Assembly (NCBI GenBank): GCA_027038275.1
Contig: JALVXC010000065.1
Location: forward strand, 1 to 49,064
From: Campylobacteraceae bacterium
GTDB taxonomy: Bacteria > Campylobacterota > Campylobacteria > Campylobacterales > Sulfurovaceae
Direction: 5' to 3'
DNA length: 49,064 nucleotides
Below the pieces are notes generated by a model, which was not told the origin of the DNA, ran no database searches, and was given only the letters and a program-made list of their open reading frames with translations. This document shows positions 1 to 46,633 of this stretch, one piece after another (position 1 is the first letter of the stretch; the number at the start of each line of letters is the position of its first letter). A program made the translations under genes and the position numbers.

Positions 1-111
1 ATTAGGAGTATCATAAAAGTCATCAGGTAAAAGGGGGTCAATAGCAATCCCATCAACAATATTCTCTTGATTCTCAAAATAGTATTTTTTATCATATAAC
101 GTATATTCCAT
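1..111 (-). CDS. Hypothetical protein, N-terminal 37 codons only (cut by window edge)
   Basis: A minus-strand reading frame opens with ATG at 109-111 and stays open to the window edge. The visible start reads MEYTLYDKKYYFENQEN, acidic and aromatic-rich, and continues to DPLLPDDFYDTPN. An AAAGG ribosome-binding sequence lies about 10 nt upstream. No family is recognised. It is the first gene downstream, in the minus direction, of the structured element at 225-478, the same arrangement seen for the DUF2958 gene and the 119-residue gene near the other two elements. The length is unknown because the gene leaves the window. Confidence 0.55.
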   Translation of the reverse strand, partial: MEYTLYDKKYYFENQENIVDGIAIDPLLPDDFYDTPN

Positions 112-224: not shown

Positions 225-478
225 CCATTGGCTTCGGGTGTGGCGAATTGAAGCTAAGTAGTGAAGAGAAAACTTAAAAAATATTTAGCTTACTTGATTA
301 CAAGCTTGTAAGAAGTGGGTATGTAGCAAACTGCGAAATACTCTCTTCTCTTGTAATCATATGAGGTCAATATTTTATAAGTTAATAAAGTATGGGTTTG
401 AAATTTTGGACGAAACAACGTGGAGGAAAAATTACAAACTCTTGCTGAATGGTTTTCTTCACTACTTAGCTGCAATGG
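225..478. other. Structured element C (solitary hairpin domain related to part of element B)
   Basis: This non-coding stretch is closed by CCATTG (225-230) with CAATGG (473-478). Inside that is a perfect 16-bp stem, AGCTAAGTAGTGAAGA (252-267) with TCTTCACTACTTAGCT (456-471). A further 10-bp stem pairs TGATTACAAG (295-304) with CTTGTAATCA (350-359), and a shorter imperfect helix lies inside it. Blocks such as AAAATATTT, GAGGTCAATATTTTA and an ACAACGTGGAG-like segment match element B at about 34646-34873, where the stems have unrelated sequence but still pair. The 71-codon frame through it on the minus strand is an artefact of the pairing. It may be a folded DNA promoter or a structured RNA; the strand is not decided. 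Confidence 0.6.
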
Positions 479-709
479 GAATGGCAAGAGAGTAAAACAA
501 TACACCCTCCCAAACCCCTCATTAATATACCATTAACCACACATTATCCAACCATTTACAAAATACTCCTATAATAACACAGTGAAAGAGATGGAAATCA
601 AATACTCCTTTTAATATTTCCAATAAAATATGCAAATTAAAAATACTCCCCCCACTTAAACCGAAACCTCCTTTTCCTTGCTCTCTTTCAAAAACTTTTA
701 AACCAAAAT
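479..709. other. Gap with no recognised feature
   Basis: AT-rich non-coding sequence between structured element C and the terminator of the 64-residue gene. A 70-codon minus-strand frame crosses it but has no ribosome-binding site and no recognisable family. Nothing else was seen. Confidence 0.4.
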
Positions 710-731: not shown

Positions 732-918
732 CAAAATCAGTAATTTCTACTTGAATTAAACACTCTCCCTTAACAACAATAAAAGAGAGCTTCATATCTA
801 AGATATTTAACATAGGAAACTTTTGAGCTACAACATCATAAAATGCTTCTTTTGAGATACGCAATAAATCAAAAGGTTCATACCCCTCAATAGTAGTTAC
901 AAAATTATTAGTAGACAT
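724..918 (-). CDS. Small hypothetical protein (64 aa), translationally coupled to DUF2958 gene
   Basis: The protein begins MSTNNFVTTIEGYEPFDLL and ends in an acidic tail. I chose the ATG at 916-918 because it overlaps the end of the DUF2958 gene by 11 nt, a normal arrangement for translational coupling. The longer upstream alternative would overlap that gene much further. There is no signal peptide, membrane segment or recognised domain. It is the last gene of a two-gene minus-strand operon ending in the hairpin at 710-731. The function is unknown. Confidence 0.6.
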   Translation of the reverse strand: MSTNNFVTTIEGYEPFDLLRISKEAFYDVVAQKFPMLNILDMKLSFIVVKGECLIQVEITDFEE

Positions 919-1258
919 TCTCAATCTCCGATACAATACCACTTTTGTCAATGACCGTATCACTTAAAAATAAATCCATCTCAAATCCACTCTCAATTAA
1001 CTCATCAATAGAAGAGTAACCCCACTCACTCAAAGTAGGGTCTGCATCATTTTGCATATATCCAAAAGCTATTCTCTCTTTACTATCATACTCCACTACA
1101 TAAAGAACCTTAGAGGAGCAAAACAACTTAACAACCACCTCTCTAATCTCTAACCCATCAGTAGCATATAGTTCTGGAGCTTCACTCAATTTTGAGTAAA
1201 TAATATTTACCTGACTCTCAACCAATAAAGGAGACTTAATATCACATATATTTTTCAC
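908..1258 (-). CDS. DUF2958-family protein (116 aa)
   Basis: The central part (about residues 26-100) matches what I know of DUF2958: a LYAT segment, a hydrophobic strand with VKLF, a VEYD block, an FGY segment, then NDADPTLSEWGYSSIDEL and a late FEMDLFLSD. DUF2958 proteins are small and common on conjugative plasmids and ICEs, and their biochemical role is not established. The start is GTG at 1256-1258, supported by AAGGA at 1266-1270 with a 7-nt spacer; no ATG lies nearby in frame. The start is only 22 nt from structured element A (1281-1699), so that element could be its promoter or leader. If the plasmid transfers as inferred from oriT, the transferred strand is the template for this gene, as in leading-region genes. 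It overlaps the next gene by 11 nt. Confidence 0.75.
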   Translation of the reverse strand: MKNICDIKSPLLVESQVNIIYSKLSEAPELYATDGLEIREVVVKLFCSSKVLYVVEYDSKERIAFGYMQNDADPTLSEWGYSSIDELIESGFEMDLFLSDTVIDKSGIVSEIENVY

Positions 1259-1280
1259 AATAAAATCCTTAAAAAGTAAA

Positions 1281-1699
1281 TTTTCTTGTTTATGAACAAT
1301 GTTTGAATCCCCTAGCCTTTTTTATTTTTAAAGCTAGAGAGATTTACTGCTCATAACAAGATTTTCTCGTCCAATCACAAAGTTCGTTATCCCTGTTCGA
1401 CAAACGTATCAATGAAAAAAAATAGTTGGTTTCAAATTAAAAACTTTTAAATTGAAAGTCACTATTAGCAGAGCAATTTTTTCTAAGATTAAGAGAGGAG
1501 ATAAGGGATAACAACTTTGGGAGTGGATGAGATAAGCCCAATATGAATAGAGAATCTCTCTAGCTGATAAAAAATAAAAAGAGATAAAAACCGTAATCAC
1601 GTTTCCTTATTGCTCTTGGCTTAGTGATTAGAACAGGAACTGCGATGTACCATGTACTCGTCTCAAAGAGATTCAAGCACGACCCAAAGGGGAAGCCCC
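1281..1699. other. Structured element A (about 420 nt, homologous to element B)
   Basis: The stretch is non-coding and aligns with 34308-34969 over its whole length, except for an inserted domain in B. Shared blocks are TTTTCTTGTTTATGA at the left edge, TTGAATCCCC, GATTTTCTCGTCCAATCAC, GTTATCCC, GAGTGGATGAGA, GATTAGAACA, GTACCATGTACTCG and a right-edge GGGGAAGCCCC hairpin (1689-1699). Pairings kept with changed sequence include CTAGC with GCTAG near 1311-1337, GTTATCCC (1386-1393) with GGGATAAC (1505-1512), and a TTTCAA/TTGAAA hairpin near 1432-1460. Wobble-pair evidence is split between the strands: some stems favour plus, others minus. It sits 22 nt from the start of the minus-strand DUF2958 gene and 20 nt before a ParB-type site. 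Confidence 0.65.
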
Positions 1700-1719
1700 A
1701 AAATAGAACTAACAACATT

Positions 1720-6840: not shown

Positions 6841-6993
6841 AGCAAACCGAATAGAGCCGAAAGGCGATAGGTAAAACCGAATGATTAGGGCGAAGCCCCT
6901 CGACTTTTGAAAAGAAAGGCTGTATAAAGCTAATAAGGCTGTATAAGCTGTAGGGCTTTTTTGAAGCCCATAAAATAGGGCTTTCAAAAGACT
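6841..6993. other. Origin-left segment with short repeats and hairpin
   Basis: This holds three CCGAA motifs, a GGGC-GAA-GCCC mini-hairpin, a direct repeat GGCTGTATAA (6918-6927 and 6937-6946), and a hairpin GGGCTT (6953-6958) with AAGCCC (6964-6969). It is GC-richer than its surroundings. There is no T-run that would make the hairpin a convincing terminator. It is probably part of the replication origin. Confidence 0.45.
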
Positions 6994-7531
6994 AAAAACA
7001 CCTTTTTATCCGTGAAAAACACCTTTTTATCCGTGAAAAACACCTTTTTATCCATATACGACACCTTTTTATCCATTAAAATTCTATATTTCTATAGACA
7101 TCAATATACTCATTAAAAACACCTTTTTATCCGTGAAAAACACCCTTTTATAAATTCACTTTTCTTAACTGTTAAATCTTCCTAATCTTTTGAAAAAATG
7201 CAATATTCAGTTAATTTTTCTTTTTAAAATGTAAAAAAAATCTATTTTTGTAATATTTTTAAACATTTTCAAATAATTTTTTCTAAAAAACCCAAAATTG
7301 TGGGGTTTAAATATTTAAAAAACACCTTTTTATCCGTGAAAAACACCCTTTTATAATTATAAAAAAATGTGAATGTTTTAAATAGAGAATCCCGATATAT
7401 GGACTTTTAAAGACTTTAAAAACACCTTTTTATCCGTTTAAAGTCTTTTTTTGAATAAAAATTTATATATTTTTTTTGCTATTTGCCGATATTTAGGATT
7501 TGAAAATCATTAAAAACACCTTTTTATCCGT
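6994..7531 (+). repeat. Iteron array of the replication origin (oriV)
   Basis: Direct repeats with core ACACCTTTTTATCCGT, usually preceded by a run of A, occur at about 6994-7013, 7015-7034, 7036-7054 (ending CCAT), 7061-7075 (ending CCAT), 7115-7134, 7318-7337, 7418-7437 and 7512-7531. Two degenerate copies (AACACCCTTTTATAA) follow at 7136-7153 and 7339-7354. The first three are about 21 bp apart, one helical turn pair, as for Rep-bound iterons. Very AT-rich segments between the groups (7141-7320, 7440-7500) could be the unwinding region. The TTATCCG part resembles half a DnaA box. Confidence 0.92.
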
Positions 7532-7606
7532 TTGAATCAACCTCCCCTAATTTCGGACTACAAGGACAAATAAATACTATTTTCTGTAAAATACACTATA
7601 TAATTT

Positions 7607-8955: not shown

Positions 8956-9927
8956 TTGTCTATAAATCCCAAAACAGATGCCCAAATAAGATTAATTGAA
9001 AAGTTAAAGAGAGAAATGGGACCAATCTGTTTAAGTGCTCTACAGAACCAAAATGTCATCGAAATAATGCTTAACAGTGATGGAACATTATGGGTAGAGG
9101 AGATGGGAAAATCGATACAACAAGTAGGTGTATTGGAAGAGACCAAAGCAAAAGCACTACTAGGAACAATAGCAAGTTACCTCAATACAACTATAACAGC
9201 AAAAAATCCTATAATAGAGTGTGAATTACCTATAGATGGAAGTCGGTTTGAAGGACTTCTTCCACCTATTGTAAGTAAACCTACTTTTAGTATCAGAAAA
9301 AAAGCCTCAAAAATTTTTACTCTTGAAGATTATTGTCTCCAAAAAATACTAACAAAAGAACAATACCAACTTATAAAACAAGCTATCTATAATCCTAATG
9401 ATGAGAAATCATCAAAAAAAAATATTCTCATTGTTGGAGGAACAGGCTCAGGTAAGACTACATTAGCCAATGCCATTATAGATGGCATTGTAAAACAGAC
9501 TCCCAAAGATAGGGTAGTCATTATAGAAGATACAGCAGAGATACAATGTGCTGCAAAAAATAACGTCATACTAAGAACAAGTAATGAAATCTCAATGTTA
9601 ACTCTATTAAGAGCTACAATGAGATTACGACCTGACAGAATCTTAGTAGGGGAGGTGCGAGGAGCAGAAGCATTAGACTTACTAAAATCATGGAATACAG
9701 GGCATAGTGGAGGTGTAGCAACTGTACACGCAAACTCTGCAAGAGCAGGGCTTACACGTTTAGAACAACTCATAGCAGAAGCTACCCAAGCACCTATGCA
9801 AACTTTAATCTCAGAAGCCATTGACATTATCATATTTATAACAAAAACTTCAAAAGGTCGTATGGTAAAAGAGATTATTGAAGTCATAGGTTATGATAAA
9901 TCAAAAGATGATTACATCATTAAATAA
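8956..9927 (+). CDS. trbB: TrbB/VirB11 traffic ATPase
   Basis: The sequence contains LIVGGTGSGKTTLANAI (Walker A, residues 159-175), an acidic IIEDTAEIQC (Asp box), MRLRPDRILVGEVRGAEALDLL (Walker B) and GHSGGVATVHANS (His box), all diagnostic of VirB11-type hexameric secretion ATPases. It powers pilus assembly and DNA transfer at the cytoplasmic face with TrbE and TraG. The length of 323 aa is normal. The only workable start is TTG at 8956-8958, with AGTGAG nine nt upstream; an in-frame stop at 8917-8919 and no ATG/GTG between make this near certain. It is the first gene of the trb operon, and a 22-bp palindrome follows its stop. Confidence 0.95.
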   Translation: MSINPKTDAQIRLIEKLKREMGPICLSALQNQNVIEIMLNSDGTLWVEEMGKSIQQVGVLEETKAKALLGTIASYLNTTITAKNPIIECELPIDGSRFEGLLPPIVSKPTFSIRKKASKIFTLEDYCLQKILTKEQYQLIKQAIYNPNDEKSSKKNILIVGGTGSGKTTLANAIIDGIVKQTPKDRVVIIEDTAEIQCAAKNNVILRTSNEISMLTLLRATMRLRPDRILVGEVRGAEALDLLKSWNTGHSGGVATVHANSARAGLTRLEQLIAEATQAPMQTLISEAIDIIIFITKTSKGRMVKEIIEVIGYDKSKDDYIIK

Positions 9928-17203: not shown

Positions 17204-17909
17204 AAAAAATCTATTAATAACTCTAGCGTTATTAATGATAAATGGATGCAGTGAACTACTAAATAACAAAGAGCATAAACACTTTATTTCACAAGTTAGT
17301 TTAAAACATTTCAAACTTGATAAAACAATTACACAAGATATGATACATTTCATAAAAAACTACTATCTTATCCCCAAAACTACTTTTTATTTTCAACTTG
17401 GTTCATCAGTCTATGCTCATGATGCTATTATTGAAGAGGGACTACGTAGTGTAGGATATGGAGTTAGCTATATAAGAAAGAGGGGGACTATCCCATTTGC
17501 TTATAAAATAGATTTTATTGATAACAATATTATGAGAACAACTTATAATATTGGTTCAGCTACACTAAGTCGCCTCTATAGCATAGAGGGGAATCAAGCT
17601 ACTCCAATATCTGCTTTTACTGCTAGGGGTTTTAAAAAACGTATTTACCAAAACTATCCCAACAGCTCATATAGTCTAAAAAAAGCCATTGTCTCTATTC
17701 CTGTTCTAAATGTACGAAACTCTCCATCATTAAAGGGAAAAATCATAGGAAAATTTTATAAAGATTCACTAATCTATGTAGAAGAGCCTATCATCAATTC
17801 AGGTAAAAAGTGGAGTAGAGTAATCCTAACAAATTTACATAACAAAGATATATCATCAAACATAGAAGATAGATATGTTGCTACACGATATATCCAATAC
17901 ATCAAATAG
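17190..17909 (+). CDS. trbH: TrbH/VirB7-position lipoprotein with C-terminal SH3-like domain
   Basis: The signal peptide MKIIKKNLLITLALLMINGC ends at a lipobox cysteine (ING-C). I use ATG at 17190, with GGGGAG six nt upstream, rather than the ATG two codons earlier that touches the same ribosome-binding site. The middle (GSSVYAHDAIIEEGLRSVGYGV) recalls TrbH of IncP. The last 70 residues (SIPVLNVRNSPSLKGKIIGKF, then KKWSRVILT and YVATRYIQYI) look like a bacterial SH3 domain, which often binds peptidoglycan. It should anchor the TrbG-TrbI core in the outer membrane. The 22-bp palindrome (17214-17235) is encoded inside the signal peptide. Confidence 0.8.
   Translation: MKIIKKNLLITLALLMINGCSELLNNKEHKHFISQVSLKHFKLDKTITQDMIHFIKNYYLIPKTTFYFQLGSSVYAHDAIIEEGLRSVGYGVSYIRKRGTIPFAYKIDFIDNNIMRTTYNIGSATLSRLYSIEGNQATPISAFTARGFKKRIYQNYPNSSYSLKKAIVSIPVLNVRNSPSLKGKIIGKFYKDSLIYVEEPIINSGKKWSRVILTNLHNKDISSNIEDRYVATRYIQYIK
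17214..17235 (+). promoter_or_regulatory. 22-bp dispersed palindrome, copy 6, inside the trbH signal-peptide codons
   Basis: An exact match that also encodes part of the hydrophobic core (LLITLALL) of the trbH signal peptide. Exact retention of all 22 bases within a coding stretch argues for selection on the DNA site. Confidence 0.75.
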
Positions 17910-29979: not shown

Positions 29980-31575
29980 CTAAATCCCCATTCCCTTTTT
30001 ACGCTCTTGGTCCTGAATCCTCTTCATTCTCCTGTCCACAAACTCAATCTTAAGGTCATAACGCTCATTAACCATCATCAGACGCTTTTTAAACTCTAAG
30101 CTCCCTTGAACATCTAAACGCTTACCAAACTTCTCTGTAGCCATCTCTAAAGAGGTAAGTATGGCTCTATCACTATCTTCAATGGTCACTTTTAGGTAAG
30201 AGCCTGTATCAACTATCTTTCCATGCTCTTCAATCTCATAGACTGCTTTTCCCTCTTTGGTTATCTGTAGCTTTAGACTCTCCCAAATCTTATGATTGAT
30301 TTTACCTTGTGGGTGTCGTAAGATATTCTCATTGGGTTTAAATACCATTTTAGTTCTTCTAAGAGCTTCAAGAGCCAACTCATCTCCAGCTAATGCTCTC
30401 TCAAGTAGAAACTCTTTATAGGAGAAGAGTCTATTTGCTTTATGAATAGCGTTTCTCTTTTTTGCAAACCGTTCACTAAGCTCTTTTAACTCTGCTCGTC
30501 TATGAGCAAATATATTTTGTCTTTGTTGATACTTTTGAGAAGAGGAGAGGGTAGGGTGATGGTTAATCTTCTCTAGTTGCTCCTTATATTTTAACCCTAT
30601 ACTCTCACGTAGTGCTAACCTACTCTTTTTCTCTAAACTAAGCTCCTCTTTTTTAGTGACTCTTCTTCTTTTGATAAGCTCTTGATACTCCTCCCATAGA
30701 GAGGATTTAGGCATACCAAAGCTCTTTTTAACCCTAGAGCTTGTCTTATAGCTTTTAAACGCTCCAAATCGCTTCTCTAAGCTCTTTTTAGACAATATCC
30801 TATGAACATCACTCGCTTTTACAAAGAGCTTTCTCTTCTTATCTCCAATCACTAAACCATTGGCTCTTGGTTTTATCTCTAAATTGTATTGGGCTAAGAG
30901 TTCCTGTAACTCTTTTAAATCACTTTGAGGATTTGCTATAAGCTCTTTTATCTCCTCTAAAACCTCCTCTTTAATCCATGTTAAGAGGTTCTTCATACCT
31001 GAGTGTATCTCTTGGTCTCTGTATCTATGCTCTTTGGTTTTAGAGTTACTATTTTCACTCTCTTTTAACGACACCTTTTTATCCGTAAATAGCTCGGTAG
31101 GGTGGTTATCTCTCTTTAATTTATACCTCTCTTCTAGCTCTTGAGCCTTTTTTTGTAACTTCATTTTTGACTTCCAAGGGTCTACTAAAAGGTTTGTATG
31201 TGGATTTAATCGATTAACAGCTATATGAATATGAAAGTTATTGGTATTGTTGTGAGTTACAGAGAGTCTATGGTGTTCTTGCATTCCTAAAACCTTTAAT
31301 AGCTCCTCCTCAATAACCTCTAAAACTTCCCTAGAGGGCTTCTCCTCCTCTTGAAAAGATACTACAAGATGCAGACTCTTATCACTCTTTACCATCTGAT
31401 TTAACTCTTGCATCTGTTTAATATAGGAGATATTCTCCTCTATCTTCTCAAATGGACAATTAGAAAAAGCGTAATGCTCTAACTTCTCACCTCTATTTTT
31501 AACATCAAGTAGATAGTTTGCTAAACCTCTAAATGAACCTTTACCCTTTGAAGCAACCTGTTTTACTATCACCAT
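29980..31575 (-). CDS. traI: TraI-type MOBP relaxase
   Basis: Tyr21 (LANYLLD) fits the catalytic tyrosine position of RP4 TraI. SVTHNNTNNFHIHIAVNRL (about residues 105-123) is the metal-binding three-His motif, and the rest of the N-terminal 170 residues matches the relaxase domain. The C-terminal part is long, basic and helical. The enzyme nicks oriT at 32259/32260 and pilots the strand. The ATG directly follows the traJ stop (TAGATG), its AAGGAG ribosome-binding site lying in the last traJ codons. Codons for FTDKKVS contain an exact Rep iteron core (31069-31087). Confidence 0.93.
   Translation of the reverse strand: MVIVKQVASKGKGSFRGLANYLLDVKNRGEKLEHYAFSNCPFEKIEENISYIKQMQELNQMVKSDKSLHLVVSFQEEEKPSREVLEVIEEELLKVLGMQEHHRLSVTHNNTNNFHIHIAVNRLNPHTNLLVDPWKSKMKLQKKAQELEERYKLKRDNHPTELFTDKKVSLKESENSNSKTKEHRYRDQEIHSGMKNLLTWIKEEVLEEIKELIANPQSDLKELQELLAQYNLEIKPRANGLVIGDKKRKLFVKASDVHRILSKKSLEKRFGAFKSYKTSSRVKKSFGMPKSSLWEEYQELIKRRRVTKKEELSLEKKSRLALRESIGLKYKEQLEKINHHPTLSSSQKYQQRQNIFAHRRAELKELSERFAKKRNAIHKANRLFSYKEFLLERALAGDELALEALRRTKMVFKPNENILRHPQGKINHKIWESLKLQITKEGKAVYEIEEHGKIVDTGSYLKVTIEDSDRAILTSLEMATEKFGKRLDVQGSLEFKKRLMMVNERYDLKIEFVDRRMKRIQDQERKKGMGI
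31069..31087 (+). repeat. Stray Rep iteron inside traI
   Basis: ACACCTTTTTATCCGT, identical in its 16-base core to the oriV iterons, lies within the traI coding sequence. Confidence 0.7.
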
Positions 31576-31965
31576 CTACTCCTTAGATGGCTCTAAGAGC
31601 TGACGAGCTATCTCTAGCAGTTCACTCTCTTTATCGATTAAATCATCTACTAAATCTGATATATCCTCATAACGTCTATCTCCTAAATTACCCCATCTAC
31701 CATTTTCACTCTCTAGCCATAGTTTAAAGAGTCCTCCTAAGCGTCCTAAATCTGCTCTGCACTTTACAAGTTCTGATAAGGCTCTTTGGTCTACTACGGA
31801 TTTAATAGGGTAGTTCAATCCAAGATTTCTAAGATAGGCACTAGAGCTAAGTCCTGTATTGACTGCTTTCTCTTTTATCTCTTCATACTCTCTATCTGTA
31901 CATCTTGTATTGATATATCTATTTTTTAACTTTTTACTCTCTTTTTTTACTTTGGAACTTTTCAT
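31576..31965 (-). CDS. traJ: TraJ-type oriT-binding relaxosome protein
   Basis: The 129-residue basic protein has a ribbon-helix-helix-like N-terminal part (INTRCTDREYEEIKEKAVNTGLSSSAYLRNLGL) and CRADLGRLGGLFKLWLESENG, which matches the DLGRLGGLLKLWL segment of RP4 TraJ. TraJ binds the inverted repeat beside nic and recruits the relaxase. An imperfect inverted repeat of the right kind (32213-32249) lies upstream of the nick. The start is ATG at 31963-31965 with GAGGAG. It is coupled to traI and divergent from traK across oriT, as in RP4. Confidence 0.92.
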   Translation of the reverse strand: MKSSKVKKESKKLKNRYINTRCTDREYEEIKEKAVNTGLSSSAYLRNLGLNYPIKSVVDQRALSELVKCRADLGRLGGLFKLWLESENGRWGNLGDRRYEDISDLVDDLIDKESELLEIARQLLEPSKE

Positions 31966-32212: not shown

Positions 32213-32262
32213 GAATGTGTCGTAAAAATTTATTTTTTGTGTCACGTTCTCCCATCCTGCCC
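32213..32262 (+). other. oriT: Origin of transfer (oriT) with RP4-type nic
   Basis: CCATCCTGCCC at 32252-32262 matches the RP4 nick core ATCCTG/C, placing the cut between 32259 and 32260 on the plus strand. Ten bp to its left ends an imperfect inverted repeat, GAATGTGTC (32213-32221) and GTCACGTTC (32241-32249), the expected TraJ-binding repeat. TraJ and TraI genes lie to the left and traK to the right, the same geometry as RP4. By that model the relaxase stays on the 5' C and the strand enters reading rightwards, so traK and 32.4-35 kb form the leading region. The rest of 31966-32422 is T-rich and otherwise featureless. Confidence 0.85.
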
Positions 32263-32842: not shown

Positions 32843-33667
32843 TTAGAATAGTCTTCCTGTTGCGAATATCTCTAGTTCTTTGTTAGTGTAGAGTAGTTTA
32901 TTCTCTATGGTATCGCAGGGTAGGGTGATTTTTTTTGGTTGGGGGTGTTGTTCTATTTGCAAATCATTAGTGGCTCTATTTTGTTTCTCGTTTTTCTCTT
33001 CTTCTTTTTTTATTTGGTTATGGTTTTGGGTTTGTCTATTTGAGGCGTTCATAATATATTTTGGGGTGTACCATATTGAGAATTTTTCATTGGATAGGGC
33101 GTTACCGTGGATTACCTCTGCTGATATTCCCAATAGGGATAGTTGGATAAAGCTCATGTGTACGCAGAGTATATCTACATCTATTGCTTGTACTTCCATT
33201 ATATTTTGGTATTCAAATCCATACTCTCGTTTTATTATATCTGCTCTTGCTATTATCATTACTCCAGAGCCACAGCATGGCTCTACTATTGACTCTTTGT
33301 TTTTGATTGGCTCTCCTAGAATGGAAGCCATAAAGTTTGATATGTGGTATGGGGTGAAGAATTGACCTTTATATTTTGAGCCTAGATTTAGGTTCATAAA
33401 GCATTCACCTAGAAAGTCACCCATTTTATCCTCTAAGCCCATTGCTAGGTAGCTTAGGAGTTTTGGGAATATTTCGGCTATATTTTTTTTATATTTTGAG
33501 ATGGTTTGCAGGTACTCTTTTTCAAGCTCTTCACTTCTTAGGAAGGGTTGGTATAGGCTTATAGCTGTCATTTTACAGAAGTCTGTGAAGAGTTCCCATG
33601 CTTGGAACTCATAGCAGTTTGACTCTATTAGTTTTATAAACTCATTTTGTGCTTTTTTATAGTTCAT
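32843..33667 (-). CDS. N6-adenine methyltransferase-like protein, catalytic motif not visible
   Basis: The 274-residue protein has an N-terminal helical part, GQFFTPYHISNFMASIL (about 100-116) and VEPCCGSGVMIIA (SAM-binding motif I, about 127-139), then AIDVDILCVHMSFIQLSLLGI, as in HsdM-type enzymes. The expected NPPY/NPPF motif is absent: the strand after HGNALS reads FSIWYTPKYIM. Plasmid and ICE relatives show the same change, so methylation activity is doubtful. The C-terminal third is polar and Gln/Asn-rich. It is the third gene of a minus-strand operon below structured element B and would enter a recipient early, where DNA modification or antirestriction genes are common. Confidence 0.8.
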   Translation of the reverse strand: MNYKKAQNEFIKLIESNCYEFQAWELFTDFCKMTAISLYQPFLRSEELEKEYLQTISKYKKNIAEIFPKLLSYLAMGLEDKMGDFLGECFMNLNLGSKYKGQFFTPYHISNFMASILGEPIKNKESIVEPCCGSGVMIIARADIIKREYGFEYQNIMEVQAIDVDILCVHMSFIQLSLLGISAEVIHGNALSNEKFSIWYTPKYIMNASNRQTQNHNQIKKEEEKNEKQNRATNDLQIEQHPQPKKITLPCDTIENKLLYTNKELEIFATGRLF

Positions 33668-33891: not shown

Positions 33892-34251
33892 CTACATCTC
33901 AAATAGGTTTAATTGGATAGGTTTAGTTGATACTTTTTCTAAATCTATCTTTTCACCAATTTTTTTAAAGAGGTATCTTTTTATCTCTCCATAAGAGGCA
34001 ACACCTTTAGCACTATTTACAAAGATTGAGTGGTAGCCTGTAGAGGTAAATGCTTCAAATCCTCTACTTAGGGCATGAAAAGCAAAGTGAGATAGGTTTG
34101 TGCTTTTAGAGTAGAGGGGTTGGTAGATTACGGCAAAGCTTAGGTGATTTATCTCAAAGAAGAGGGTATAGATTAGCTCTTTACCTCTTTTATTGATTGA
34201 CCCATTTAGTAGGCTCTTTTTTTCATATACTTTATAGGGTATGCTACACAT
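33892..34251 (-). CDS. Hypothetical protein (119 aa), first gene of the leading-region operon
   Basis: The start is ATG at 34249-34251, with AAAGGA about ten nt upstream. A longer frame to 34356 would run into structured element B and lacks a ribosome-binding site. The protein has no membrane segment; it contains LIYTLFFEINHLSFAVIYQPLYSKS and FHALSRGFEAFTSTGYHSIFVN, and ends PIQLNLFEM. No known family is recognised. It starts 57 nt from the edge of structured element B, comparable to the DUF2958 gene beside element A, suggesting both are driven or controlled by the elements. Confidence 0.65.
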   Translation of the reverse strand: MCSIPYKVYEKKSLLNGSINKRGKELIYTLFFEINHLSFAVIYQPLYSKSTNLSHFAFHALSRGFEAFTSTGYHSIFVNSAKGVASYGEIKRYLFKKIGEKIDLEKVSTKPIQLNLFEM

Positions 34252-34307
34252 AATTTTTAAATCCTTTCTATTCTTTTTTATAGAGATACAAACTCTTTTA
34301 TGATTGA

Positions 34308-34969
34308 TTTTCTTGTTTATGAGCGTTTTGAATCCCCTCCTTTTTTTATTTTCCAAGGTGGAGAGGGTTTTAGCTCATATTCAAGATTTTCTCGTCCAAT
34401 CACTCTTCGTTATCCCTATTGACGAATGAGGAAGAGATAAAAAATACTTAGTTTGGAATAAAACACTTTTTATTCCAAAGTCAGTATTAACGTAGTGGTT
34501 TTAGCTAGAGTGTAGTGAGGAGTATGGGGTAACTAAGTGTGAGTGGATGAGAAGAGCCAGAGTAACAAAACGCTCTTTACCTTGAGAAGAAAATAAAAAG
34601 ATATGAAAGAATCGGAACGATAGTGTAGATTTTCCGATTGAATTGAATAAGTGATTAAAAAGGAACTTAGAAAATATTTGGCTCCTCTTTAGCTATGACC
34701 TTTTATAAGTGTCTGTGCAACGAACAGCGAAACAGTTGCTTATAAAAATTGGGGCATAGATGAAGAGGAGGTCAATATTTTATCAGTAGTGGAATGGGGG
34801 TTTCATTTTTTTAGGAACAGCGTGGAGAAAAAAAGGAAAGTCTTGTTCTACGGTCTCTTTTTAATGGCTTGTTCAATAGCTTAGGGATTAGAACACGAAG
34901 TGCGACGTACCATGTACTCGCCTTGGAACGGAGTGGAAAGGTTCAAGCCCGACCCGTAGGGGAAGCCCC
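34308..34969. other. Structured element B (about 660 nt), leading-region candidate ssDNA promoter or large structured RNA
   Basis: It aligns with element A at both ends and contains an additional domain related to element C. Stems visible: ATGAGC (34318-34323) with GCTCAT near 34373; CCCCTCC with GGAGAGGG; GTTATCCC (34409-34416) with GGGGTAAC (34526-34533); TTTGGAATAAAA with a matching arm near 34474-34485; AATCGGAA with TTCCGATT near 34610-34640; AATAAGTGATTAAAAAG (34646-34662) with 34857-34873; CTCCTCTTTAGCTATG (34682-34697) with 34755-34770; and the terminal GGGG-AAG-CCCC hairpin (34959-34969). Several differ in sequence from A or C while keeping pairing. No coding frame is credible. It lies about 2 kb into the predicted leading region, upstream of minus-strand genes. 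Confidence 0.68.
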
Positions 34970-35036
34970 CCTATATGATACTTAAATGAGTATATAAACT
35001 TCACAGAATGAAACATTATGTTAAGCAAACTCAAAT

Positions 35037-35936
35037 TCATAACTTTTCAAGGATATTATCAAACTTAACAAAATATTCTTTATAATCCTTGACATTAACC
35101 CCACGCCTTTCAATATATTTTGTATTAAATCTTTGTACAGCATAAAATAATGAAGCAAACAACATATACTCTTTCATATGTTTTATTTCAATTTTACTTG
35201 AATTAGCATTACTATAAGCATTGAGTAAAGTAGTTAAGTAGTCAATGTTTAGGGTACTATCATTATTGAAACACCAACTATTAGCAACAACACTTAAATC
35301 AAAAATTGAATCACCAGTACATGACTCAATAAAATCAAAAACACCTGTTAATTTATCATTCACAAACTTAGCATTATCAGGAAATAAATCTCCATGAATA
35401 ACACAATTATTATTTACCTTCAAATTTTGAATCAACTTATATCTTTTCATAAAATTATCTTTAGTAGATTTATCAAAAGATGAAATTTGAATATTATTCA
35501 GCATATTTTTTAATTGACTTTGTGTGTATAAATTAGGGTTTATCGAGTTCAATCCAGTTGTCTGTTTATGAAATTTACCCAAAAAATCTCCTATTTGATT
35601 AATCTGTTTTAATGAAGGATAACAAATAGACTCTCCTTCAAGATAACTAAATAAGCCAATTGGCTTATCATTAAAAAACTCTATTTGTTCTTTCGATAAT
35701 AAAAATTTTGGAATAGGTAAATTCTCTAATACATTAAGCAGTTCTATCTCATTTCTCAAAATTTCTTCATCTGCAAATTCATAAATTTTAAATATATATT
35801 TTTTACTTTCATCCTCTCCTATATATGTAGTATCAGAAATTCCATCTATAGTTTGTTTTAAACTTAGAAAAGTAAAATTATACTTTTTAAGTAATTTGTT
35901 AACCTGTTCTATATCAATTAATGTTCTTACACCCAT
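35037..35936 (-). CDS. Homoserine kinase (ThrB type II)-like APH-fold kinase
   Basis: The 299-residue APH-fold kinase has NCVIHGDLFPDNAKFVNDKLTGVFDFIESCTGDSIFDLSVVANSWCF, with catalytic HGD at 181-183, Asn188 and metal-binding Asp201. This block is close to the homoserine kinase II family (VIHADLFPDN..., GLIDFYFACTD, AWCF), which makes O-phosphohomoserine for threonine. The N-terminus (IDGISDTTYIGE) also fits. A biosynthetic kinase is odd on a plasmid, and here the gene directly follows (9 nt) the TIR-STAND receptor in an operon, with GAGGATAAG before the ATG. It could be a recruited paralogue acting in immunity, a resistance-type kinase, or a hitch-hiking metabolic gene. Confidence 0.75.
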   Translation of the reverse strand: MGVRTLIDIEQVNKLLKKYNFTFLSLKQTIDGISDTTYIGEDESKKYIFKIYEFADEEILRNEIELLNVLENLPIPKFLLSKEQIEFFNDKPIGLFSYLEGESICYPSLKQINQIGDFLGKFHKQTTGLNSINPNLYTQSQLKNMLNNIQISSFDKSTKDNFMKRYKLIQNLKVNNNCVIHGDLFPDNAKFVNDKLTGVFDFIESCTGDSIFDLSVVANSWCFNNDSTLNIDYLTTLLNAYSNANSSKIEIKHMKEYMLFASLFYAVQRFNTKYIERRGVNVKDYKEYFVKFDNILEKL

Positions 35937-35945
35937 TTCTTATCC

Positions 35946-38435
35946 TCAAATTAATAAATCAATATTTTTAATACATATCCAATAATTTTTTTTATTTATC
36001 TTAAATGTATTTAATATATGCTCAGGGGAATCAAAATTATCTAAAATATAGCTACCAATACTATATTGATTACTATCTACAATATTTCTAGCTTCATAAA
36101 ATAATTCTTGATTATTAAAAAGTAAGCTTTTATTATAGAGAATTGCTGCTTTCGCATAATATTTTTGATATTTATCTGCTGTATATAATGCTATTTCAAA
36201 AAGTCTCTTCGCATTATCTATATTTCCCCTAGAAACTTCCATTATGGCTTGATTATTAAAATAATAACATTTCACTTCCATATTTATGAAATTTACTCTC
36301 TCTTCAATCTCTTCATTTTCTACAGATACTTTATGATAAACCATATAATTACTATGAATAACTTCAATCATACTTTCATCAAAGATTGACTGCTCATTTC
36401 TTAATACCTTTTCATATATGGGTGCTAAGATATTTTTTGCTTTTTTATAATCTCCTTTAGAGAAATAATAAATAGAAAGAGTATTACTCACTATGTAAAT
36501 TTTCACCTGATTAGGATAACCTTGGTATATTTCTATAGAACTATTTAAATACTGTTCTGCCTTTTCAAAGTTTTTTAAATCATCCACATAAACTCTACCT
36601 ATTGTATAGTAAAAATAAGCTGTTTGCATCTCATTAAAATCATTATTTTCCAGATACTTATTAATTACTTCTATAGCCTGATTCCATTTTGAATCACCTT
36701 TACTCATAGATATATAATTTAAAATATCATCAAATTCTGCATAATTTTCATTTATTAAAAATTCAATTATTTCAAACGAAACTTCCCTACTATTAAAATA
36801 GTAGAAATTTTTATACAACTCTTGAATGAAAATATGATGAGTTGTATTGTATTTAGAAAATATCCAATTTAATATTTGTTCTATTCCCTCTTCATCATCC
36901 ACAAAGTAATCTTCACTACATTGTTCTTCATCGATAAGCCAATCATAAAGTGTTTTATGAAAAAACTCTACTTTCTCATTATTTATATAAATTAATGAAC
37001 CTATAGAATCTTTTACTCTCTTCATCTTTTTTTTATTCCAACCCAATATCTCTCTTAAATATTTTAAAGGTAAAGAGGTCCTAGTTGCAACCATGAGTTG
37101 AAAAACTTTTTCTTGATTCTCTTCATACTCTTTAATATCTGGGAATTGTCTTAGAAAATACTGTTCATAAACCCCACTTAACTCATTTGGAAAAGTATCA
37201 ATCTCTTCAACAGATACACTACCATTCTTGATTGCAGAAAGTACCTCATTAATATAAAGCATATTATTTTGACTTTTCTTCACAAGCACTCTCAGCATAT
37301 TACTTTCAATATCCCCTAACTCTTTAGTAATTATTTTTTCTATATCTTTACTATTTGCATCCGTATCTCTTGTATCAAGTACCATAGGAGAAAACTTTGA
37401 TAATGCTATTTTTAAATTAGGTTCAGGTCTACTGACAATAAGTAGTCTCAACCATTTAGGTAGTTTTTCAAACTCATTAGCTATTAAATGGATAATTCCA
37501 AATTTTTCATCTTCAATCTCATCTAAACCATCAATTATATAAATATGATTATTTGGGGGAACTTCAATTTTATTCATAGGTTCAAGAATTATTTTTTGAA
37601 AAAAATCTTTAAGATTCTTAGAATACTTTTGATATTCATCATTACTTATTTTTTCAATTTCTCTTTTATAATTTGGTAATTGTGTTGACATATGATATGC
37701 AAATGTTTTTATAAGTTCTAGTGGACTTCTTCTTAAGACACTATCATATTGACAGAAAAAAACACCTGCAATATTTGGTAATATATGAATAGCATTCGCA
37801 ACTATAGCTGTCTTTCCATACCCTGCTTTAGCTGTAATCCATAATACTGATGAAGCTTTAGAATCGTTTAACCAAGTTAAAATTTTACTATATATCCATT
37901 CTCTTCCTATAAATTTTTTAGTTTGTTTTACAATATCCAAATCAAAGTTTTGAGGTTCTAATAACTTAACTAAAGAATGATTTGAACTCGTTTCAATTAA
38001 CTTATTATTTTCCTCTAAAATAGCTATCAACTTTTGTAAATAAATTTGATATAACTCCTCATTAAACTCATCAGCATCTTTATCCCAAATATTTATCATA
38101 TCTATCCATTGTAAACGACAAATTGATAATGGAGGGGTAACCATTTCTAACATAACAGGAATAATTGGCTTATTTTCTAAAATTGCATAAGAAATTTCAT
38201 TAAGACAAAATCCATTAGGTCTTCTAACAGCATGTTCTGTCATGAAAAATACAACTTCATCATTTGATGATAAAGCATCTTCTAACATATGCTCCCAATC
38301 AGATTTTATTCTTATATTCTCTGTATCTAACCAAACTTGAAAACCTTTGCTTTCTAAATCATCTTTAATTCGCATAATAAAATCAACATACTTTTGAGGT
38401 TTTCTTCCATATGATATAAAAATTTTTTTCTTCAT
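35946..38435 (-). CDS. TIR-STAND NTPase-TPR protein (bacterial NLR-like immune receptor)
   Basis: The TIR domain (residues 1-140) begins KIFISYGRKPQKYVDF and has LSSNDEVVFFMTEH and CLNEISYAI, with Glu80 at the NADase position. A NACHT/STAND NTPase follows: GREWIYSKILTWL, WITAKAGYGKTAIVANA (P-loop about 200-215), HIYIIDGLDEIEDE (Walker B near residue 315) and LLIVSRPEPNL (sensor). A winged-helix-like segment (LPLKYLREILGW) and a TPR-type repeat region (about 590-830) complete it. Such proteins detect a phage component through the repeats and then use TIR to destroy NAD+ or make a signal. The start is ATG 38433-38435 with AGGAG. It is followed by the homoserine-kinase-like gene. Confidence 0.9.
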   Translation of the reverse strand: MKKKIFISYGRKPQKYVDFIMRIKDDLESKGFQVWLDTENIRIKSDWEHMLEDALSSNDEVVFFMTEHAVRRPNGFCLNEISYAILENKPIIPVMLEMVTPPLSICRLQWIDMINIWDKDADEFNEELYQIYLQKLIAILEENNKLIETSSNHSLVKLLEPQNFDLDIVKQTKKFIGREWIYSKILTWLNDSKASSVLWITAKAGYGKTAIVANAIHILPNIAGVFFCQYDSVLRRSPLELIKTFAYHMSTQLPNYKREIEKISNDEYQKYSKNLKDFFQKIILEPMNKIEVPPNNHIYIIDGLDEIEDEKFGIIHLIANEFEKLPKWLRLLIVSRPEPNLKIALSKFSPMVLDTRDTDANSKDIEKIITKELGDIESNMLRVLVKKSQNNMLYINEVLSAIKNGSVSVEEIDTFPNELSGVYEQYFLRQFPDIKEYEENQEKVFQLMVATRTSLPLKYLREILGWNKKKMKRVKDSIGSLIYINNEKVEFFHKTLYDWLIDEEQCSEDYFVDDEEGIEQILNWIFSKYNTTHHIFIQELYKNFYYFNSREVSFEIIEFLINENYAEFDDILNYISMSKGDSKWNQAIEVINKYLENNDFNEMQTAYFYYTIGRVYVDDLKNFEKAEQYLNSSIEIYQGYPNQVKIYIVSNTLSIYYFSKGDYKKAKNILAPIYEKVLRNEQSIFDESMIEVIHSNYMVYHKVSVENEEIEERVNFINMEVKCYYFNNQAIMEVSRGNIDNAKRLFEIALYTADKYQKYYAKAAILYNKSLLFNNQELFYEARNIVDSNQYSIGSYILDNFDSPEHILNTFKINKKNYWICIKNIDLLI

Positions 38436-38485
38436 TTCTAAAACTCCTAATTAGATTTTTTTAAGTGGTCTTGACAATGGGGTAC

Positions 38486-38515
38486 ATTATACATCTCTAT
38501 GAGAATAGCTAATAA
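38486..38515 (-). promoter_or_regulatory. Likely promoter of the TIR-STAND operon
   Basis: On the minus strand TTATTA (38510-38515) and TATAAT (38486-38491) are separated by 18 bp, about 50 bp upstream of the ATG, in the gap after the RyR-domain gene. Confidence 0.55.
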
Positions 38516-38540
38516 ACGCTTTATAGTTTCTCTCTTTCAT

Positions 38541-40367
38541 CTACCCCTCCACAATCTCAAACCCACCCCGAGCCAAATATTCAGGGATATAATAGACCGA
38601 ATCCATGTCATACTTATAGGTTTTTTTAATAGTATCATTATCAAAATTCTCTAAAGGCAGTAAACAATAATGCTCTTTAGCATCTTTATTCTTTTGACTA
38701 CTATAATCCCAACCATTTAGATATTGGAAAGCACACCAACGATTGTGTTCTGACCTTGCTACTTTGTCAAAAAGTGTCTCAAATGAAGTTGGAAAATCAT
38801 CAACCTTATAGTTTTTAAATCTTGCTTCTATTGTGTTAATATCTTCTAGTTTACTATTAAATCGCTCTCTATTTAGCTTTAAAAGCTCTTCTAGTCTTTT
38901 TTCTGCTTTTACTCTTTTGAGACCAAAAGCCAAAAGTTTAATATCCATATGTATCGCTTGGGTTTTGTTAGTATCTTGTTCATGTGGCGTAATATCTAAC
39001 CAATGTTCATTTAATTTTTTTTGAACAACATCTTTCTCTCCCTGATAATCATTATGAATCAACTTAGCTATCAAATCGAGCTTTTCATCAATCAAAATCT
39101 CTTTAGTCGAAGTCGTTCTAATATTTCCAAAGGAGTAAAAGTTCTTAAAAGCTTGATTATCTTTGTCTATCTCTTCACCTAATCCTAAATTGTGTTCTAA
39201 TGCAAAAAGAACTTTGGTATTAAACCTATTATGACCAATATCTTTGATATAGGTGGTATCTTGCAGATTGATTGCAATATCAAGATTTTTCTCCTCATTA
39301 GTTGTGGCAATTAGAACATTAGTCAAATTATCACTGTGCCAAATAGGGTCTTCATAAAACTCCAAAGTCTCACTATCAATATCTTTAGCACTGATAGTTA
39401 GATGAGGAATCTTGTCTATCTTAGGAAAGAGTTTTCTGATTCTATCTCGAAATTTTGTAGAGTTTTCACCTATAAAATGTAGATTTAGCCTATTTTGATT
39501 GGGAAGTGTAGAGAGAAATGAGATATGATAAACAAGTTCAACAGCCAAATCAGAATCACCAACTAAGATTATATTAAAGTCTTCATCCGTCTTAATAATA
39601 TTGGTCATATTTCCTAAAATAGTATGTTCTAAAAAGAGTTTTTTTACCATATTTTCATATAGAGAGTAGGTTACAATATTTACATGCTTATCTTTCTCTT
39701 TTCCAATTACATCTTGCTTAAAAAGCACATTCAAATCTCGATTTTGAATACAGACATGAACCGTTTGATTTTTATCTTCACTATTTTCAATTTTACTCAT
39801 AAGAAACTTACCTAAAGCAATGTTTTTTCTATCATTTCCTGTAGAGATAATACACCTCTCCATCTTATCTAAATCAAGACTTTCAATAGCACCTTTAGTA
39901 TTGTACTCACTTATCGTAGCAAAATCTTTCTCTTGAAAATACTCTAAATAGGTGTTGTTTCTATCTTTTTCTATAATAATTGTAGATTCTTTGTCCTGTT
40001 CATTTTTTAAGAAACTAACATTCTGTTCACTCAATCCTACTATCAAGGTATAGCTATCTCTCTGTATAGCCTTTATATGCCACTTATTAAAATATTTTGA
40101 GAAAAACATAATAAAAAAACCAAATGAAAAAGTTGCAATACCTAAAAATCTAGCAATATCTAAAAGCCAATAAGTATCATCATTCCACTCTGCTACAAAA
40201 AGTCCTAAAGTATTATTGATACTACCTAAAAATGAAGAAGTACCAACATTAAGGAAACCAATTAGACCAAAAAAAATGGTTGCAGATATTAGATATTTTA
40301 GTATCTTTTCTCTGTTCTTTTTTAAATTATATGGTTGGATTTTTTTGTAACTTAGTAGGCTTATCAT
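38541..40367 (-). CDS. Membrane TrkA-N-like protein with C-terminal RyR domain
   Basis: Two or more N-terminal membrane segments (about residues 24-47 and 66-90) are followed by two Rossmann-like regions, YTLIVGLSEQNVSFLKN (about 106) and FNIILVGDSDLAVELVYH (about 263), resembling the regulatory nucleotide-binding part of K+ transport proteins. The last 75 residues (SEHNRWCAFQYLNGWDY, then CLLPLENF and YIPEYLARGGFEIV) fit the bacterial RyR domain, thought to sense nucleotides. Proteins with this combination appear in predicted conflict systems. It lacks a P-loop or nuclease. The start is ATG with AAGGGA. It reads toward the TIR-STAND operon, which has its own promoter, so it may or may not be part of the same system. 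Confidence 0.78.
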   Translation of the reverse strand: MISLLSYKKIQPYNLKKNREKILKYLISATIFFGLIGFLNVGTSSFLGSINNTLGLFVAEWNDDTYWLLDIARFLGIATFSFGFFIMFFSKYFNKWHIKAIQRDSYTLIVGLSEQNVSFLKNEQDKESTIIIEKDRNNTYLEYFQEKDFATISEYNTKGAIESLDLDKMERCIISTGNDRKNIALGKFLMSKIENSEDKNQTVHVCIQNRDLNVLFKQDVIGKEKDKHVNIVTYSLYENMVKKLFLEHTILGNMTNIIKTDEDFNIILVGDSDLAVELVYHISFLSTLPNQNRLNLHFIGENSTKFRDRIRKLFPKIDKIPHLTISAKDIDSETLEFYEDPIWHSDNLTNVLIATTNEEKNLDIAINLQDTTYIKDIGHNRFNTKVLFALEHNLGLGEEIDKDNQAFKNFYSFGNIRTTSTKEILIDEKLDLIAKLIHNDYQGEKDVVQKKLNEHWLDITPHEQDTNKTQAIHMDIKLLAFGLKRVKAEKRLEELLKLNRERFNSKLEDINTIEARFKNYKVDDFPTSFETLFDKVARSEHNRWCAFQYLNGWDYSSQKNKDAKEHYCLLPLENFDNDTIKKTYKYDMDSVYYIPEYLARGGFEIVEG

Positions 40368-40437
40368 GATTTTCCCTTATTAAATTAATATAACAAGTAT
40401 AATATATTTATTATTCAGATAAGATATAGAAATTTGC

Positions 40438-40460
40438 TTCTCCAAAAAATCTAAAAAAGA
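40438..40460 (+). repeat. Promoter-region repeat, copy 1
   Basis: TTCTCCAAAAAATC followed by an A-rich end also occurs at 40841-40863, each about 40 bp upstream of a plus-strand gene start. It could be a shared operator or an ancestral duplication. Confidence 0.45.
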
Positions 40461-40496
40461 CCCCTTAAAATCATCTAAAAATCATAAGGATTGAAG

Positions 40497-40802
40497 ATGA
40501 ACAGATACACTACAAGACATGGAAGAAAACGGCTAAGACAACGTTTAGGCTTAAAGAAAAAAGCTCATGCTCGACATATACAAAAAGTTTTAAGAGATGG
40601 GCTTGTTGAGTATAGAGATATGGAGAAAAAGATTCTTTATGTTTGGTATGACTGCCACAAATATATCTTTTCTAACTACAAAAACTTGGAAGCTCGTTTA
40701 ATTACAGTTTTTCCAAGAGACAAGAAACAGTCTCTCTCTAATCATAGAAATCATCTAACACCTTTCTCATTGATGAAGCTAGATGAGTCTCGAAGTGCAT
40801 AG
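40497..40802 (+). CDS. Small basic hypothetical protein (101 aa)
   Basis: The ATG at 40497-40499 is preceded by AAGGA with a six-nt spacer; a TTG two codons earlier is weaker. The protein begins MNRYTTRHGRKRLRQRLGLKKKAHARH, very basic, and then has KILYVWYDCHKYIFSNYKNLEARLITVFP, a beta-rich half. This resembles a widespread family of about 100-residue proteins of unknown function with RHARKRxxxRLG near the start, which look like compact ribonuclease-toxin (RelE/BECR-type) folds; that is a guess from pattern. It stands alone, divergent from the RyR gene, and is followed by a palindromic AT-rich hairpin. Confidence 0.55.
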   Translation: MNRYTTRHGRKRLRQRLGLKKKAHARHIQKVLRDGLVEYRDMEKKILYVWYDCHKYIFSNYKNLEARLITVFPRDKKQSLSNHRNHLTPFSLMKLDESRSA

Positions 40803-40815
40803 GCATTTTAAATTC

Positions 40816-40855
40816 TATTTTTTTGGAAGAAAATATATTTTTCTCCAAAAAATCC
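40816..40855. terminator. AT-rich palindrome, terminator or operator
   Basis: TTTTTTGG and CCAAAAAA arms enclose GAAAA/TTTTTC arms around TATA, spanning most of the gap between two plus-strand genes. It could terminate the first or control the second; its right arm overlaps the repeat at 40841-40863. Confidence 0.45.
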
Positions 40856-40863
40856 AAAAAGAG
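40841..40863 (+). repeat. Promoter-region repeat, copy 2
   Basis: A near-identical partner of 40438-40460, ahead of the first gene of the envelope operon. Confidence 0.45.
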
Positions 40864-40905
40864 TAGATTAAACTACGATTATCTTAAAAGACGAAAGGAT
40901 AAACG

Positions 40906-41334
40906 ATGAAGAGAAAAATTCTGATGAGTTTAGTTATGTTTGGGTGTTTAAACCCTTTGTTTGCAAATGATACTGTAGATTGGGATAAAGAAGAACAGCT
41001 TGAAACTCAATTAAAACAGAAAGAAGAGATGTTGAAAAAGCAACAGATAAAAAGCAAAATGTTATTAACTGAAGCTATTGTAATAGCTCAGGATACTATT
41101 GATAGTTTAGAGAAAAACCTTGAATTTTTTCAAAAAATTCAATCTAGCAAAGAGTATCGAGAGTGTACGATAATCAAAACATATATTGAAAACATCAATA
41201 AAGATAGAAATATTGCTGACGAATTGTATCAAGAGAAAGAGGTAACAAAAAAGCAATATACCATTTATATATCAAAATTGAATGCAACTCAACAATCTCT
41301 ACAAAACAAAATAGACCAAAAAAAATGTAAATAA
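40906..41334 (+). CDS. Secreted coiled-coil protein, first gene of envelope operon
   Basis: A signal peptide (MKRKILMSLVMFGCLNPLFA) is followed by a charged helical mature protein of about 122 residues (EEQLETQLKQKEEMLKKQQIKSK) with two cysteines (REC and KKC at the end) that could form a disulphide. No family is recognised. ACGAAAGG precedes the ATG. Ten nt separate it from the next gene; six plus-strand genes to 44542 are packed this way and are read here as one operon. Confidence 0.65.
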   Translation: MKRKILMSLVMFGCLNPLFANDTVDWDKEEQLETQLKQKEEMLKKQQIKSKMLLTEAIVIAQDTIDSLEKNLEFFQKIQSSKEYRECTIIKTYIENINKDRNIADELYQEKEVTKKQYTIYISKLNATQQSLQNKIDQKKCK

Positions 41335-41344
41335 GGAGCAAAAG

Positions 41345-41845
41345 ATGAAAAGAGTAATTTTAGTAACAGCAATAACATTAATAGGAAGTTCAAGTCTCTA
41401 TGCTAAAGAGATTCCAACTAACCCAAAAACACCATCTACTAATCAATCTAAAAGAGCAAAGATAGAAGTTATAGAAGCCAAAATTAAAAAATATGAAGAG
41501 TATTTAAAAAATTTACCAATTAAAACAAAACAGGCAATTGCAGAGCTTTCTGGTTATAAAGACAAAGGAAATGAAGCTGAACGCATGACAAAAGACCTTC
41601 TTGTAACCTTAGATATGTGTGCTACAAATGAACTTAACGAAATGGCTGCTTCTGCTTGTAATGATATAAATGAGGAAGATGTTTCTGTAACAATTAAAAC
41701 TTATCAAGCAGAAATAGAAGATATGATTGCAATGGCAACAAAAAAATTAGAAGATTTGAAAATAGATAAAAAAAATGCACCTATTATTGAACGGGCAAAA
41801 AAAGCATTAGAAAATGCTAGAGATATTTTGAAAGGAGTAAAATAG
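41345..41845 (+). CDS. Secreted helical protein
   Basis: A signal peptide (MKRVILVTAITLIGSSSLYA) is followed by a helical, Lys/Glu-rich mature part (VIEAKIKKYEEYLKNL) with a pair of cysteines (MCATNE and SACND) about 17 residues apart. AAGGAG lies before the ATG. Size, signal peptide and helical character match the preceding protein, so the two may be distant paralogues or partners in the periplasm. The function is unknown. Confidence 0.65.
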   Translation: MKRVILVTAITLIGSSSLYAKEIPTNPKTPSTNQSKRAKIEVIEAKIKKYEEYLKNLPIKTKQAIAELSGYKDKGNEAERMTKDLLVTLDMCATNELNEMAASACNDINEEDVSVTIKTYQAEIEDMIAMATKKLEDLKIDKKNAPIIERAKKALENARDILKGVK

Positions 41846-41847
41846 TC

Positions 41848-42747: not shown

Positions 42748-42749
42748 TT

Positions 42750-44542: not shown

Positions 44543-44585
44543 ATATTATATAGTCCCTCCAATTAACAACAAATAATCAAATATC

Positions 44586-44594
44586 TGCTATACT
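44586..44594 (+). promoter_or_regulatory. Extended -10 promoter of the second TIR gene
   Basis: TGCTATACT is an extended -10 element 28 bp upstream of the ATG, after a 43-bp gap from the envelope operon, so the TIR gene is probably transcribed on its own as well. Confidence 0.5.
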
Positions 44595-44622
44595 AAATCC
44601 ACCTAAAAGAGGGGATTTAGTA

Positions 44623-45828: not shown

Positions 45829-45853
45829 TAGTAAAAAAAGTAAAGGACAATAG

Positions 45854-46509: not shown

Positions 46510-46564
46510 TGGTAGTCAAAACCAAATCCAAAAAATCCAAACCAAACAAGTTAAAATAACAAAT

Positions 46565-46594: not shown

Positions 46595-46633
46595 AAAACC
46601 AAACCCAAAAACCCCAACAAAAAAGGGATTAAG

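Follow-up and report, generated by a model that had tools for sequence, protein, structure and literature searches.

Modular folded elements on the transferred strand of Sulfurovaceae conjugative plasmids

Introduction

Most of what is known about gene expression and the start of second-strand synthesis in incoming single-stranded plasmids comes from F-like and IncI plasmids, and the papers found describe no ssDNA promoters in the bacterial group considered here. In a Campylobacteraceae bacterium of the family Sulfurovaceae (GCA_027038275.1), the initial annotation pointed to a small segment of contig JALVXC010000065.1, called C here, as the free-standing form of a folded domain that is also inserted in a larger element, B. 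The question is what kind of molecule this domain folds in, and what it may do there.

The window, that is, the whole stretch of 49,064 nt analysed here, is the entire contig (C65 of genome G000) and belongs to a MOBP-type conjugative plasmid. It encodes a Rep_3 initiator, ParA/ParB, VirB4/VirB11/VirD4-like proteins, a TraI-type relaxase and a NikA-like protein, and a pattern search found its nearest named relatives among Sulfurovum and Nitratifractor genomes. Iteron-like direct repeats (AAAACACCTTTTTATCCGTG) are present at 6964-7548, upstream of the Rep_3 gene (7612).

Results and Discussion

Fold of element C

Element C was found exactly where it had been placed, at 225-478 on the + strand, and is a three-way-junction domain. 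Its outer stem joins 252-267 with 456-471 in a perfect 16-bp helix and is closed further by CCATTG (225-230) pairing with CAATGG (473-478). Within it, the MFE fold contains the inner helix GATTACAAG/CTTGTAATC, a long AT-rich helix that carries an inner apical hairpin, and a second hairpin with the conserved loop GACGAAACAACGTGGAG. C has an RNA MFE of -90.1 kcal/mol, whereas 200 dinucleotide shuffles give -53.2 (sd 4.3; z = -8.6), and the longest perfect stem in 30 shuffles did not exceed 9 bp. Three blocks had been described as conserved on the loop side, AAAATATTT, GAGGTCAATATTTTA and one containing CGTGGAG. All three are present and CGTGGAG does lie in the loop of the second hairpin, but AAAATATTT is paired with GAGGTCAATATTTTA in the long helix, and neither is a loop sequence.

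The whole contig was also scanned with DNA parameters in sliding windows of 220 nt. Of the 445 windows on the + strand, those of B (34651, z = -8.4), of a further element, A (1321, z = -7.3), and of C (221, z = -6.7) had the lowest z, and in each of them the + fold was more stable than the - fold. The next-best + windows, 9461-9680 and 17381-17600 (z about -5.6 and -5.2), lie within the transfer gene region and show no relation to C or to the tail module described below, according to the respective covariance models, R1 and R2.

Copies of the C domain and covariation

A search of 175 family genomes with R1, together with blastn inside the genus, gave nine copies of C, all in Sulfurovaceae: three in G000 (C itself, the domain within B and one on contig C48), two in G029, and one each in G022, G147, G061 and G130. 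Weak R1 matches in G045 and G096 were left out of this count. The C48 copy, from the same genome, is 93% identical to the window copy. The resemblance to the inserted domain of B, which had been delimited at 34646-34873, was confirmed, and the covariance model sets its bounds at 34635-34894 (+). The initial annotation had made its claim depend on finding the conserved blocks in a paired context in some other genome. They are paired in G022, G029, G147, G061 and G130, and thus the finding stands.

Across the nine copies, whose alignment leans to the model, 93.8% of cells are paired under the model structure; sliding this structure by 1-3 columns lowers the value to 44-53%. Double compensatory changes affect 37 of the 61 pairs, a number reached by none of 500 shuffles, and a MAFFT alignment of the first six copies has 22 pairs with double changes. 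As had been noticed for C and B, the outer stems pair although their sequences are unrelated: they are perfect over 16, 20, 13 and 10 bp in the window, G029:C82, G147 and G130, respectively, with no sequence in common among the four. In G130 a GC-rich sequence replaces the AT-rich helix with the fold preserved, so that a fixed -10 box at this place is unlikely. C is a real, conserved module, reused alone and inside larger elements.

Among the paired cells of C, G.T occurs in 44 of 359 and A.C in only 5, and therefore + must be the folded strand. However, G.T pairs are common in structured RNA as well, and it should be considered that these elements could be non-coding RNAs transcribed from the + strand, forming a new plasmid RNA family whose strand relative to the nic site would be an inherited accident. 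The strong covariation, the many G.T (G.U) pairs of C and the multi-helix junction architecture would suit such an RNA, as would the A/T-rich TATATAATC, which precedes C by about 60-90 nt in the window as well as in G029:C82. On the other hand, the elements match no Rfam family at gathering or even at lax thresholds, and A, B and C have no terminator-like site after them on the + strand. Together with the observations on tail loops, strand and start codons given below, this leads us to regard an RNA as rather unlikely. Outside the genomes searched with the models, blastn of C and B against PLSDB gave no match; in viral contigs, four loci fitted the C pattern without matching the model, and the N and T patterns had no hits.

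Tail module and modular combinations

Element A (1280..1700, +) consists of a 5' domain, N, and a tail module, T (1616..1700, +), without a C domain, whereas in element B (34307..34970, +) the N domain is followed by the inserted C domain and by a tail (34876..34970, +) with C[GNA]G triloop hairpins. T is an 85-nt module. Its model, R2, found 18 places, including A, B, one in G029:C82, two in G029:C26, one in G029:C80, one in G147, three in G130, two in G013, one in G142 and a degenerate tail on C48; weak matches in G103 and G043 were not counted, and the search of 398 genomes of the order gave nothing outside the family.

T covaries independently of C, with 16 double-changed pairs (0 of 500 shuffles), and its helix at columns 9-18/67-75, which was never used for model building, is 92% paired and has six double-changed pairs. 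The hairpins of T are often capped by GAA, GTA or GCA triloops, which are usually closed by C-G while the middle base varies. Mini-hairpins of the C(GNA)G type, d(GCGNAGC), are hyperstable in DNA, and loops of this kind fit DNA better than RNA, which argues against the RNA explanation.

The modular reuse that had been proposed is seen in several combinations. C occurs alone in the window and in G029:C82, and with T in G147, G130 and C48; N, C and T together form B, in three plasmids, and N with T forms A, in two; several copies of T have neither C nor N. Another conserved 5' block (CATAGC..., GGCAAGTTATTCATNTGAT) precedes T in G130, G013 and G142 as an alternative to N and C (L054:4000-4680, L090:18600-19400, L091:5000-5800 and L094:11000-11750). 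The idea that C exists on its own holds for the G029:C82 copy, which has no detectable tail, but less clearly for the window copy. On C48 the C copy is followed by a degenerate tail (G000:C48:1070-1154), and by comparison with it positions 479..500 (+) of the window are a probable remnant of the tail start. As this start seems to be retained, the window copy may be a C plus tail that has since lost the tail.

To the right of C, a stretch of about 130 nt (516-646) has a 99% identical counterpart at one end of contig C48. Portions of about 80-180 nt are found again directly after B in G022:C135 and also in G029:C26 and G029:C82. This stretch seems to be a conserved right-hand flank, used as an insertion place by cargo genes.

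Nic site and transferred strand

A sequence match to the IncP/MOBP nic site, CATCCTG|C(C), is present at 32253-32260 on the + strand, near the genes for a TraI/MobA(P)-type relaxase (29980..31575, -) and a NikA/TraJ-like relaxosome protein (31576..31965, -). The published MOBP nic consensus is (C/T)ATCCTG(C/T), and the relaxase remains on the 5' cleaved end (PMC3772185). Thus, + is the transferred strand (T-strand) and the leading region is to the right of 32260. CATCCTG|C is kept on the + strand in the window, in G029:C1 and in G022:C135. The leading region includes an N-6 DNA methylase gene (32843..33667, -), with a possible anti-restriction role, and element B, which lies 2.0 kb from nic and is likewise leading in G029:C1 and G022:C135; as the contig is not closed, placement relative to nic applies to B only, and not to C or A.

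A, B and C are all on +, the same strand as nic, and B is on + also in both other nic-bearing plasmids. On all five contigs with several copies, the copies share one strand (three in the window, two in G029:C82, two in G029:C26, three in G130:C153 and two in G013:C42), although orientations at orthologous loci are not independent and many of these counts come from such loci. A single strand per contig for all copies, which is the nicked strand in three plasmids, is one more point against RNAs made from the + strand. The strand evidence favours single-stranded DNA of the transferred strand over RNA as the folded form, without proving it.

Neighbouring genes

A, B and C each stand immediately upstream of an opposite-strand gene, and the same occurs with the copies in G029:C82, G029:C1, G022, G147 and G130. 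Among the copies that bear N or C, only two have no adjoining minus-strand gene: that of C48, where cargo genes stand between C and the minus gene, and that of G061, where the contig ends. From one plasmid to another, A, B and C keep their places next to the same genes. A distance of about 20-60 nt separates the beginning of A and B from the start codon of a divergent gene, which also speaks against an RNA transcribed from +.

The gene to the left of C, which the initial annotation had left to be identified, has its 5' end at 1..111 (-), is divergent from C, and continues on contig C48 of the same genome, from which it was completed as a 165-aa gene. Its family is represented in 446 plasmid records, including Vibrio, Aliarcobacter, Sedimenticola and enterobacterial plasmids. 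Homologues are near ArdC and toxin-antitoxin genes in pYJ016, near an N-6 methylase in a Sedimenticola plasmid, and near HicA/HicB in an Aliarcobacter plasmid; R1 and R2 detected neither C nor T with the homologues in three plasmid records. The gene read away from A (908..1258, -) encodes 116 aa and is conserved beside A in G029:C82, and the one read from B towards oriT (33892..34251, -) encodes 119 aa, with homologues that adjoin B or C/T elements in G029:C1, G022, G013 and G130.

This arrangement could suggest that the divergent minus-strand genes use the elements as leader or attenuator RNAs, with the reverse complement acting as a 5' UTR, or as operator DNA. In addition to the minus gene that adjoins nearly every copy with N or C, the interval separating C from its gene holds a conserved hairpin with T's after it on the minus strand (AATAATCT..AGATTATT). 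However, the minus strand folds much worse and the G.T pairs are on the + strand (44 against 5 A.C), indicating that the complement is not the selected fold. Moreover, there are copies of T with no minus gene on that side: those of G029:C26, G029:C80, G142 and G130 (4417) come after plus-strand genes, and not before minus-strand ones. We therefore consider a leader or operator very unlikely.

The cargo genes raise the possibility of non-autonomous mobile elements or recombination sites, either IS200/IS605 ends with a guide-RNA-like tail or folded sites resembling integron attC, with gene cassettes. The second allele of the C locus (G000:C48:1-3877, L027) differs from the window by cargo inserted on both sides of C. 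The cargo genes are one with a NERD domain, a small one and two for nucleases (Endonuclease_NS/Excalibur, one confirmed as Endonuclease_NS). The terminus of the tail is GGGGAAGCCCC-like, one tail overlaps the stop codon of a nuclease gene, and integrase genes are beside the copies in G147 and G061. Nevertheless, these integrases match generic phage-integrase profiles and none was seen near A, B or C, which in turn keep their positions by the same genes across plasmids, and a mobile element or recombination site is in our opinion highly improbable. The more specific idea of an IS605/TnpB guide RNA (omega RNA), suggested by the GGGGAAGCCCC end, was rejected, since G000 and G029 have no TnpB (PF07282) and the TnpB loci of relatives have no tail.

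Comparison with known systems

The Frpo1 and Frpo2 sites of the plasmid F leading region are experimentally known, as are their positions (PMC9849209). When plasmid F was scanned in the same way as the window, as a positive control, the T-strand z was -7.1 in the interval adjoining ssb on its upstream side (Frpo2) and -6.6 upstream of a second leading operon, which was taken as Frpo1; both intervals were more stable on the T-strand, as are A, B and C, and the leading genes of F are read towards oriT. Plasmids with Frpo or ssi sites have several of them, as hairpins of the T-strand placed upstream of those leading genes (SSB, methylases, anti-restriction) that are read towards oriT (PMC9849209, PMC11541004). 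The elements described here share several of these traits: B is in the leading region, nic and the folded strand are both on +, and the T-strand is the template for the minus genes at A, B, C and their relatives, with variation among the tail-only copies. In contrast, the Sulfurovaceae elements exceed those sites in size (250-680 nt), have a modular make-up that includes junctions and a tail with GNA triloops, and come from a host in Campylobacterota. The hairpin arms showed no convincing -35/-10 pair, as promoter-like matches there were at chance level in a scan that covered Campylobacterota promoters in part, and R1 and R2 had no match in the 48-67 kb region of F. With neither homology nor promoter boxes, the elements are not assigned to the Frpo/ssi sites and are regarded only as working like them.

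A second possible parallel is EGeRS1 of the pLS20-family Bacillus plasmids, a region of 400-600 bp with many inverted repeats that is repeated upstream of establishment genes (PMC8708921). The size of A, B, C and the G013 and G130 copies (250-680 nt or more), their position and the presence of several repeat-rich copies agree with it. However, the establishment genes of pLS20 have the transferred strand as their non-template strand (PMC8708921), while in the Sulfurovaceae plasmids the T-strand (+) is the template, and the first 50 kb of pLS20 gave no significant R1 or R2 match.

Single-strand origins of rolling-circle plasmids and G4-type or n'-pas sites of phages are stretches of folded ssDNA where RNA polymerase or primase is recruited and the complementary strand is started. 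By analogy, such a role would suit the tail module T, although here the host element is a conjugative plasmid.

Proposed role on plasmid entry

We favour, with some reservation, the view that A, B, C and their relatives are a new family of modular ssDNA elements that act in the T-strand of Sulfurovaceae conjugative plasmids, and probably also of integrative elements, working like the Frpo/ssi sites without being homologous to them. The family is new; it occupies a known kind of place and probably has a known kind of job. During mating, the + strand would enter the recipient as single-stranded DNA with its 5' end first, and the N, C and T modules would fold at once into duplex-like helices left exposed by SSB. 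The folded N or C domain would probably serve RNA polymerase or a primase as the starting point for RNA made on the T-strand template. This RNA would extend towards the 5' end, by then within the recipient, and could express the adjoining minus-strand establishment genes, prime the complementary strand, or both. Thus, C itself most likely acts as ssDNA that starts transcription or priming on plasmid entry. The modules may divide the work: because T also occurs away from minus-strand establishment genes, it is probably a separate single-strand initiation site, for priming or loading.

A more tentative reading, possible but doubtful, is that of a distinct class of functional ssDNA with an RNA-like architecture, not of the Frpo type, which would serve as a combined platform for promoter, priming and protein loading on the transferred strand. 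Its RNA-like traits would be the multi-helix junctions with compensatory changes, the interchangeable modules and the GNA-triloop tails. Under our preferred explanation of Frpo/ssi-like elements, the clear covariation and the separate occurrence of the parts would make it possible to test promoter, priming and structural roles one at a time. The family would also demonstrate that covariance models of the RNA style can detect functional folded ssDNA, an approach that could be extended to leading regions generally.

Cargo region and a second system

Beyond B, the window carries a cargo block (35037-49063) with genes for TIR-NACHT/STAND-like, RyR-domain, APH-like kinase, second TIR and WD40 repeat proteins, the WD40 repeat gene at the right end running off the contig. 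This block is possibly a defence island.

A good second system for study is contig C42 of G013 (L090/L091), which has a TrwC-type relaxase at the contig end and a leading block composed of SSB and two DNA methylases. Both T copies of this contig are on the strand opposite to the TrwC, SSB and methylase genes, which repeats the geometry of the window. Gene-poor stretches of roughly 1.1 kb surround each of the two tails.
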